Below, piece by piece: positions 34,085 to 36,194 of a stretch of 64,000 bases of DNA. A program made the translations under genes and the position numbers. Numbering within the stretch: the stretch's first letter is position 1; each line of letters starts with the position of its first letter. The DNA lies in contig JADZGD010000102.1 in the NCBI GenBank assembly GCA_020854055.1, forward strand, positions 1 to 64,000, in the 5' to 3' direction. Under the pieces are notes generated by a model, which saw only the letters and a list, made by a program, of their open reading frames with translations, was not told the DNA's origin and ran no database searches. The DNA is from Bryobacterales bacterium (GTDB lineage Bacteria; Acidobacteriota; Terriglobia; Bryobacterales; Bryobacteraceae).

Positions 34085-34172
34085 GACTTCCCTTCAGGCT
34101 AGAATACTCGCTTATATCGTTCAAACTTCTCAACTTAGCACACATGATGGCTCCGAAGCCGGGCCGATTAAG

Positions 34173-34295
34173 TCACCGTAATTCGTCCGTAAGCCCGTTG
34201 CGGCCGGCTTTTCCCACGCCGGTGTAGACAATGCCAACACCTCCCAGGCGATGCCGCGCAGCGATCATGGGCGCGAAGCACTTATCGGGTGCCAT
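34173..34295 (-). pseudogene. Possible relic of a Ser/Thr protein kinase N-terminus
   Basis: On the minus strand this stretch reads about 40 codons to a TGA at 34173. The translation from 34295 contains APDKCFAPMIAARH followed by RLGGVGIVYTGVGKAG. With a one-residue gap, this lines up with the start of acidobacterial PknB-type kinases (PGTxLGPYEI..., then the GxGxxGxVY nucleotide loop and a RxxLGR-like stretch). Nothing kinase-like continues. It lies between thrS and the PduS-like gene. Chance resemblance cannot be excluded; I call it only a candidate. Confidence 0.25.
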
Positions 34296-34322
34296 GGTGC
34301 GGTACCCTGAATCTTGCCTGCT

Positions 34323-35633
34323 ATGTTGAGCGAGAGCTTGAAAAAGATGGGCGTGGTAGGGGCCGGGGGCGCCGGGTTTCCCACCTACGTCAAGGCACAG
34401 TCCAGCGTCGAATTCGTACTGGCCAACGGCGCCGAGTGCGAACCGTTGCTCCACAAAGACGTTGAACTGATGAAGCGCTACCCTGCCGAGATCGTCTCCG
34501 GTATGGAGCTGATGATGTCGGCGGTCGGCGCCAAGAGCGGGAAGTTCGGTGTCAAATCGAAGAATCCGAAGGCGGTCGAGGCCATTGCCCCCAAGGCCAA
34601 GGCAAGCGGCATCGAGATGGTGCTGCTCGGCGATTACTACCCGTCGGGCGACGAGTACGAGTTGGTCTACTCGGCCACCGGGCGGCTGATTCCCGCCGGC
34701 GGGATTCCGCTCCAGGTGGGGTGCGTGGTGAACAATGTTGAGACTTTGTACAACGTCCACCAGGCACAGCAGGGCAAACCGGTCACGATGAAGTTCTTGA
34801 CGGTAGCCGGCGCGGTGCGGAAGCCGTCGTCCTTCCAGGTGCCCGTAGGAACATCGTTTGGGGAACTGATCCGCCTGGCCGGGGGCGCGATTCCGCCGGA
34901 CTACGGCATTTTCGTCAGTGGCCTGATGATGGGTTCGCTCACCTTCGACCAGGACGAAGTAGTTACCAAGACGACTGCCGGATTGATCGTGCTTCCACGG
35001 GAGCATTACCTGGTAACGCGCAAGTCACAGCCCAAGCAGGCTCGCGACCGGATCGGGAAATCGGCTTGTGACCAGTGTACCTACTGTACGGAATTCTGCC
35101 CGCGCTATCTGCTCGGCTATGAAGTGAATCCGCACAAAGTAATGCGCAGCCTCGGTTTCACCCTCACCGGAGAGATGAAGTGGAACCAGTGGGCGGAGTT
35201 GTGCTGCGGTTGCGGCTTGTGCACACTCTACGCCTGTCCGGAAGACCTGTTCCCAAAAGAAGCTTGCGATGGCGCCAGGGCCGACATGAAGGCAGGCGGC
35301 ATCAAGTTTGTCCAGACCAAGCCGGTGCGCGTTCATCCCATGAAGGAATCGCGCCGCGTGCCGCTGGCCATGCTGCGCCGCCGCCTGAAGGTGGAAGAGT
35401 ACGATCGCGATACGCCCTATGCCGACCTTTCCTTCTCTCCCTCCCGGGTTCGAATCAAGCTTTCCCAGCACGTCGGCAAGCCTGCAACTCCGGTAGTGGC
35501 AAAGGGCATGCCGGTGCGCGCCGGCGACACGATTGCGCAGGTAGATGGCGATACTCTCGGCGCAAACATCCACGCCAGTATCGCCGGGTCAGTGGCTGAA
35601 GTCGCAGATACCTATATTGAAATCCACGCATAG
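34323..35633 (+). CDS. pduS: PduS/RnfC-like flavin and iron-sulfur electron-transfer protein
   Basis: The start is set at the ATG at 34323 (MLSESLKKMGVVGAGGAGFPTYVK); a TTG three codons earlier is possible. The 436-residue product matches PduS: an RnfC-type N-terminal NAD/FMN domain (GAGGAGFPT, LANGAECEPLL, VVNNVETLYNV), an SLBB domain (LTVAGAVRKPSSFQVPVG, in residues about 155-215) and two [4Fe-4S] motifs (CDQCTYCTEFCP and CCGCGLCTLYACP). A C-terminal barrel-sandwich domain follows. In the propanediol microcompartment PduS moves electrons between NADH and a corrinoid or the shell. It lies 9 bp before a PduT-like shell gene. Confidence 0.9.
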   Translation: MLSESLKKMGVVGAGGAGFPTYVKAQSSVEFVLANGAECEPLLHKDVELMKRYPAEIVSGMELMMSAVGAKSGKFGVKSKNPKAVEAIAPKAKASGIEMVLLGDYYPSGDEYELVYSATGRLIPAGGIPLQVGCVVNNVETLYNVHQAQQGKPVTMKFLTVAGAVRKPSSFQVPVGTSFGELIRLAGGAIPPDYGIFVSGLMMGSLTFDQDEVVTKTTAGLIVLPREHYLVTRKSQPKQARDRIGKSACDQCTYCTEFCPRYLLGYEVNPHKVMRSLGFTLTGEMKWNQWAELCCGCGLCTLYACPEDLFPKEACDGARADMKAGGIKFVQTKPVRVHPMKESRRVPLAMLRRRLKVEEYDRDTPYADLSFSPSRVRIKLSQHVGKPATPVVAKGMPVRAGDTIAQVDGDTLGANIHASIAGSVAEVADTYIEIHA

Positions 35634-35642
35634 TGAGACTCC

Positions 35643-36194
35643 ATGGCGAAGAATTCCATTGGTTTGATTGAACTCGGCAGCATCGCGGCCGGATTTCTGA
35701 TTACCGACGCGATGCTCAAGGCATCGGATGTGGAACTGGTGCTCTCCCGCAGCATCTGCTCCGGTAAGTACATGGTGATGGTGCGCGGCGAGGTCGGCGC
35801 CGTTCAATCGGCGGTGGCGGCGGGCGTTGAAGCTGGAAATTTTTCGGTCATCGACAGCTTCGTGATTGCCAATGTCGACGAGACGATTTTTCCCGCCATC
35901 GCGGGCATCACCAAGGCGGAACGCCTGGAGGCGCTGGGCATTCTGGAATCGTTCTCGGTAGCCAGTCTGATTGAGGGAGCGGACGCGGCCGTGAAGTCGG
36001 CTGCCGTTCAACTGGTGGAACTCCGCCTGGCGATGGCGCTCGGTGGAAAGGCATTCGCCACGCTCACCGGTAGTGTAGCCGCGGTGAACAGCGCCATCGA
36101 GTCGGGAGCGGCAGTCATCGCCGCGAAAGGACTGCTGGTGAACAAGGTTGTGATCCCACAACCCCGGCCCGAACTGCTCAGCGAGGTGTTTTGA
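35643..36194 (+). CDS. pduT: PduT-like tandem-domain BMC shell protein (BMC-T)
   Basis: The 183-residue protein has two BMC domains: residues about 4-85 (SIGLIELGSIAAGFLITDAML, given here as IGLIELGSIAAGF) and about 96-180 (SVASLIEGADAAVKSAAVQLVE, given here as SLIEGADAAVKS). Such tandem proteins form pseudohexameric trimers in microcompartment shells. The pore-side loop SRSICSGKYMV puts Cys39 where PduT has the cysteine that holds a [4Fe-4S] cluster at the trimer axis. With the PduS-like partner it forms the electron-conducting pair of a shell. Its last 17 bp overlap the convergent peptidase gene. Confidence 0.93.
   Translation: MAKNSIGLIELGSIAAGFLITDAMLKASDVELVLSRSICSGKYMVMVRGEVGAVQSAVAAGVEAGNFSVIDSFVIANVDETIFPAIAGITKAERLEALGILESFSVASLIEGADAAVKSAAVQLVELRLAMALGGKAFATLTGSVAAVNSAIESGAAVIAAKGLLVNKVVIPQPRPELLSEVF

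Follow-up and report, generated by a model that had tools for sequence, protein, structure and literature searches.

The window, by which we mean the whole 64,000-nucleotide stretch that was analysed, carries a PduS/RnfC-like gene followed by a tandem-BMC gene with no other microcompartment gene beside them, and the question raised by this locus is what such a pair does there. The sequence-only reading left two answers standing, namely a satellite feeding a microcompartment encoded elsewhere or a role independent of any compartment. We consider it likely that the pair is a relocated two-gene satellite of an aldolase (PVM-like/ACI-like) metabolosome encoded on other contigs, where it would oxidise luminal NADH and export the electrons.

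The first gene of the pair and the motifs located within it were as follows.

34323..35633, plus strand, gene for a PduS-type NADH-binding flavo/iron-sulfur protein (436 aa; Pfam Complex1_51K 2.2e-42, Fer4_17, SLBB and RnfC_N)
34350..34382, plus strand, glycine-rich loop GVVGAGGAGFPT of the FMN/NADH domain (PduS residues 10-20/21, read in alignment)
35067..35099, plus strand, first [4Fe-4S] ligand motif of PduS, C249-x2-C252-x2-C255-x3-C259 (alignment and locus scan)
35202..35237, plus strand, second [4Fe-4S] ligand motif of PduS, C294-x2-C297-x2-C300-x4-C305 (alignment and locus scan)

The reading frame runs from an ATG at 34323 to a stop at 35633, with an in-frame TTG at 34314 as a possible alternative start. 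By Pfam, the window protein has the domain order of the PduS family, Complex1_51K, SLBB, dicluster Fer4 and RnfC_N, and this four-domain make-up is the one described for PduS (PMC6325248). RnfC and NuoF were its PDB homologues, and its AlphaFold2 model had a pLDDT of 84.9. The two cysteine motifs, CDQCTYCTEFCP and CCGCGLCTLYACP respectively, have the same spacing as those of Citrobacter PduS (C-x2-C-x2-C-x3-C and C-x2-C-x2-C-x4-C; PMC2982820). All eight cluster cysteines, four per motif, were invariant across nine aligned relatives, and both motifs were found in all 43 PduS loci. The glycine-rich loop corresponds in the alignment to the GxGGAxFPT loop of RnfC and was kept in those aligned relatives whose sequences are not truncated there. 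Assignment of the protein to RnfC itself was considered and dropped, as it scored slightly under the curated NCBIfam cut-off (232 versus 246 bits) and its barrel domain is C-terminal, whereas that of RnfC is N-terminal; the curated PrdC cut-off was also missed (211 versus 490 bits).

The second gene begins with an ATG at 35643, 9 bp past the PduS stop.

35643..36194, plus strand, gene for a tandem-BMC trimer-forming shell protein of the PduT type (BMC-T; 183 aa; Pfam BMC 2.4e-43, two copies)
35757..35759, plus strand, codon of Cys39 in the pore loop, equivalent by alignment to Cys38 of PduT, which is a ligand of the shared [4Fe-4S] cluster

BMC-T was colinear with PduT (3pac and 3n79) and with 3nwg, and fell below the curated TIGR02526 (eut_PduT) equivalog cut-off (122.6 versus 250.3 bits). 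Cys39 aligned with the cysteine of 3pac and with the serine of the C38S mutant 3n79, and it was invariant in all 42 BMC-T loci. A monomer model of the protein (pLDDT 91.7) had PduT 3pac as its top structural match (Z 29.5, rmsd 1.3 A, 181 residues). In this model Cys39 lies at the end of strand 30-39, ahead of a short turn to strand 42-49, which is the pore loop of the BMC domain; its predicted placement at the trimer axis derives from homology to PduT, the model being of a monomer. The coordinates, cysteine motifs, 9-bp spacing and protein identities given in the sequence-only reading were all borne out by the reading frames, Pfam and the alignments.

The pair is flanked by thrS and by a gene for an S9 prolyl oligopeptidase, the neighbours originally reported. 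thrS lies on the minus strand, divergent from the pair, and leaves a gap of 238 bp to the PduS ATG.

34085..34322, no strand assigned, divergent intergenic region between thrS and the pair, the expected site of the pair's own promoter

Such a promoter should lie in this region, and the peptidase gene, which is convergent, overlaps the 3' end of the pair by 17 bp. Bounded by these two genes, the pair probably forms a separate transcription unit of two genes. No operator or promoter motif shared among the regions upstream of the pair, the aldolase, BMC-H2/aldehyde dehydrogenase and DapA/BMC-T2 was detected against simple shuffles; short promoter-like elements were private to single loci (GATTGTA/TACAATC at the aldolase, TGTGATAC at BMC-H2). 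The absence of other BMC genes, first noted for the window, extends to the whole 79-kb contig, on which a profile search recovered no further PF00936 or PF03319 gene.

The remainder of the genome gave a different picture. The draft assembly (4.96 Mb, 159 contigs, 98% complete) carries the pair on contig C102, and a genome-wide profile search returned four PF00936 domains in three genes together with three PF03319 genes. Besides the pair, all BMC genes of the genome lie on contig C115, where a class II aldolase, a BMC-H and a BMC-P triplet occupy 4.5-6.9 kb and a second BMC-H (BMC-H2) with an aldehyde dehydrogenase occupies 18.7-20.9 kb, ~12 kb from the aldolase locus. The description of the pair as isolated is therefore correct for the locus only; the genome does encode a microcompartment, on another contig. 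No second PduS or PduT-type BMC-T was found genome-wide, and no rival pduS/pduT with its own linked BMC operon exists in this genome. The aldolase is of the fuculose/rhamnulose-phosphate type and represents the signature enzyme of the compartment; its C-terminus, compared in 14 aldolases, ends in a conserved helix after a variable linker, a putative encapsulation peptide whose hydrophobic moment did not exceed that of shuffles. Both the large subunit of diol dehydratase (PF02286) and the phosphotransacylase PduL (PF06130) are absent from the genome, so that the compartment is not of the propanediol type and the propanediol framing of the sequence-only reading does not hold.

The position of the pair was compared among relatives, with the family represented by a sample of 61 Bryobacteraceae genomes in which PduS was called at E below 1e-100. 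The pair and the BMC-P triplet were on different contigs in 35 of 36 family genomes; these are drafts, so that linkage may be partly hidden, and several pairs lay more than 20 kb from the contig ends. When 30 pair loci were compared, only PduS and BMC-T were widely common, any further gene recurring in no more than a few close relatives, and flanking by thrS and the peptidase was seen in no other locus examined. The BMC-H2/aldehyde dehydrogenase satellite served as a control. In most relatives it lies on a contig other than that of the main locus, and in all 17 genomes compared BMC-H2, aldehyde dehydrogenase, one and the same small gene, and recJ keep a fixed arrangement (L147-L160, L166, L093 and C115). 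Given these constant neighbours, the shifting context of the pair is not merely an effect of genome divergence. The small gene encodes ~165 aa with no Pfam hit and may be an overlooked component of the compartment.

In more distant relatives the pair was operon-linked. In G216, a single 5.13-Mb contig, it lies within one complete aldolase-type operon (DeoR regulator, three BMC-P, RpiB-like protein, PduS, BMC-T, PduL, aldehyde dehydrogenase, BMC-H, class II aldolase and acetate kinase), its PduS is 57% identical to that of the window, and the BMC-T start overlaps the PduS stop by 4 bp. G224 has three BMC-P genes, PduS, BMC-T, aldehyde dehydrogenase, BMC-H and aldolase in a row, in the G216 order for the parts compared. 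In the PduS tree these operonic pairs joined the satellite pairs in one well-supported group, and the window pair was closest to those of other Acidobacteriota that have aldolase compartments; outside the group lay a second operon type, ~46% identical, of G027 and G404. The PduS and BMC-T trees agreed in several deep groups, many inner branches being weak. An operon first, with dispersal later, is the simpler reading of the order of events.

Co-occurrence bears on whether the two proteins work together and with a compartment. PduS and BMC-T were present in exactly the same 37 of the 61 family genomes and both were missing from the other 24. BMC-P was found in 36 of the 37 pair-bearing genomes, and the 15 family genomes that have no BMC gene all lack the pair (PduS versus BMC-P table 36/1/9/15, Fisher p = 2.4e-7, uncorrected for kinship). 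Nine of the 45 family genomes with BMC-P lacked the pair. Together, the 15 BMC-less genomes without the pair and the nine BMC-P genomes that do without it point to a one-sided dependence, in which the pair needs the compartment and not the converse. Across the phylum sample, all 24 of the PduS-positive genomes checked had PF00936 and 22 had PF03319; at one locus (L059) no BMC-T was seen beside PduS.

These data bear on the second answer offered at the outset, that the pair acts outside any microcompartment, for example as a free soluble NADH-dependent redox complex. Its solitary place in the chromosome and its varying neighbours would suit such a role, as would G024, the one pair-bearing genome without BMC-P. 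However, G024 is only 92% complete and keeps the BMC-associated aldehyde dehydrogenase beside a BMC gene, and the pair is essentially never met without BMC genes and is operon-linked with them in G216 and G224. An independent role is accordingly highly improbable, and the satellite answer is the one that has stood. The isolated position and the lack of PduL could mark a decaying leftover of a lost propanediol-type operon, yet both reading frames are intact, all cluster ligands are kept in every relative and the closest pairs belong to Acidobacteriota with aldolase compartments. In G060, moreover, PduS and BMC-T are on different contigs, far from the contig ends, and both are retained with their ligands intact. 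We regard decay as the least probable of the explanations considered, and the co-occurrence in 37 of 37 genomes, this unlinked case included, upholds the proposal that the two proteins work together.

By analogy with PduS in the propanediol compartment, the pair might instead be a cobalamin reductase module. The family resemblance to PduS would fit, and the large subunit of diol dehydratase does occur in eight of the 61 family genomes, seven of which bear the pair. It is absent, however, from the window's genome and from 30 of the 37 pair-bearing genomes, and the signature enzyme of the compartment is a B12-independent class II aldolase, which makes a cobalamin reductase very unlikely here.

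For the satellite of an aldolase metabolosome, which is the reading we prefer, the following course of events is proposed. A once-compact operon would have become dispersed, the pair moving repeatedly and mostly as a unit. BMC-T trimers would be built into the shell, each binding one [4Fe-4S] cluster through its three Cys39 residues at the pore, and PduS would dock on the inner face of the shell. NADH made by the aldehyde dehydrogenase of the compartment would reduce the FMN of PduS and then its two [4Fe-4S] clusters, from which electrons would pass to the Cys39 cluster and on to a cytosolic acceptor, so that NAD+ would be regenerated within the compartment. Since no alcohol dehydrogenase is encoded in the BMC loci examined, regeneration of NAD+ is the obvious task for the pair. 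PduS is known to oxidise NADH, reducing FMN and its [4Fe-4S] clusters, and to bind PduT (PMC2982820), and PduT carries a [4Fe-4S] cluster in its pore (PMC6325248). In the enterobacterial proteins the PduS cofactors have a reported midpoint of ~-150 mV and the PduT cluster one of +99 mV (PMC6325248, PMC2982820), a difference that favours outward flow. Incorporation of the pair into this particular shell is inferred, as is the direction in which electrons flow.

The anatomy of the pair would suit either direction, and in a satellite running in reverse cytosolic electrons would pass through the BMC-T cluster to PduS for a luminal reduction, of a cofactor or of lactaldehyde. Electron import for the activation of a glycyl-radical enzyme has been discussed and the role called an open question (PMC6325248). 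However, the BMC loci examined showed neither a glycyl-radical nor a B12 enzyme, and the published midpoints make the path from NADH to the PduT cluster a downhill one; import of electrons is thus unlikely. The hydroxyacid dehydrogenase listed in ACI loci (Sutter et al., 2021; PMC8217296) could be an alternative recycler of NAD+, although none was apparent by eye among the C115 reading frames.

Near the BMC loci of the nine BMC-P genomes without the pair, no replacement redox gene or NAD+ recycler was found, and this, with the lack of the pair in nine of 45, argues that the compartment can dispense with the pair. Tentatively, and short of an even chance, the pair across Bryobacteraceae may be a dispensable, roaming redox valve of a B12-independent aldolase compartment, gained, lost and moved independently of the shell and the enzymes. 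If this is true, one and the same organelle would operate in some lineages with electron export across the shell and in others without it.

The pair and its compartment share features with several known systems. PduS and PduT of the Pdu type have the same four-domain PduS with two [4Fe-4S] motifs, the same PduT fold with a pore-loop cysteine and adjacent genes; the window pair differs in lying outside a pdu operon, in a genome without the diol dehydratase large subunit or PduL, and in that both proteins fall below the curated NCBIfam cut-offs scored. ACI loci comprise an aldolase, a BMC-P triplet and a BMC-H, with the aldehyde dehydrogenase on a satellite (Sutter et al., 2021; PMC8217296). The window's genome likewise has a BMC-P triplet, a BMC-H and a class II aldolase, whose C-terminal helix is conserved, and its aldehyde dehydrogenase is on a satellite with its own BMC-H on C115, whereas no ACI hydroxyacid dehydrogenase was apparent on that contig. 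ACI loci belong mainly to subdivisions 4 and 6 (Sutter et al., 2021; PMC8217296), and the window's genome to Bryobacteraceae. The main text of that survey makes no mention of a PduS/BMC-T satellite. PVM and PVM-like compartments also use a class II aldolase, and the G216 operon shares their DeoR regulator and acetate kinase, but the window's genome lacks PduL, keeps PduS/PduT in a separate pair and has another kind of aldehyde dehydrogenase, ~30% identical to that of G216. In Ca. Solibacter usitatus, two partial PVM-like loci could make one organelle (Axen et al., 2014; PMC4207490). Satellite BMC loci such as ccmK3/K4 are known (Axen et al., 2014, PMC4207490; Sutter et al., 2021, PMC8217296) and, like the pair, place shell genes distal to the main BMC-H and BMC-P locus; the pair differs in being a redox module, a shell protein with its reductase, that has no conserved place in the chromosome.

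PduS/PduT, satellite loci and aldolase compartments have each been described before. A PduS/PduT satellite without fixed position, with its genes kept together and tied to a B12-independent aldolase compartment, was not found in the papers searched; an earlier listing in the supplementary tables of the two catalogues is possible. The role of PduS/PduT in compartments without B12 chemistry is an open question (PMC6325248), for which Bryobacteraceae provide a natural experiment, with closely related aldolase compartments that have the pair (36 genomes sampled) or lack it (nine). On this reading the microcompartment draws on three or four separate loci scattered over the chromosome, and operon-based searches will therefore miss parts of it.

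Several further observations were made on these loci. The other operon type, with PduS and BMC-T of ~46% identity, three BMC-H and three BMC-P, was found at L067:6473-13744 and L119 (G027, f2 genomes); the G027 version adds a PTAC, an aldehyde dehydrogenase and an aldolase, and replaces the usual dispersed set. Pairs 62-67% identical to that of the window occur on contigs labelled Armatimonadetes and Bacteroidetes (L057, L060) and are nested in or beside the Bryobacteraceae group in the tree, reflecting either mis-binned contigs or transfer. Another satellite in relatives consists of a DapA-family lyase (PF00701) directly before, or overlapping, a tandem BMC of 195-211 aa (L104:5235-6880, L105:4143-5797, L106:4818-6454, L107:4522-6152, L108:4941-6583 and L122:5248-6899). 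This tandem BMC has a divergent N-terminal half, its closest PDB chain being 6ner, 'BMC-H tandem fusion', and the module is possibly a further aldehyde-producing one of the same compartment. The window's genome is without the tandem BMC that accompanies these lyases; a truncated DapA-like N-terminal reading frame just upstream of the aldolase on C115 (L005:4027-4443, PF00701 positions 2-103 of 289) may be a remnant. Finally, the aldehyde dehydrogenase (L005:18681-20000 and on; C115 18681-20591) has a long Pro/Ala-rich C-terminal extension that ends in a short domain, ESDVRSAIQKSQKIHVGPKTIITPAARELAGGTDVLVTI, resembling the N-terminal part of the RpiB-like protein of the G216 operon, EADILKAVDAGASSISLPKRTIVTPLARDSARARGIELK, and this likeness possibly represents a common compartment-associated tail.
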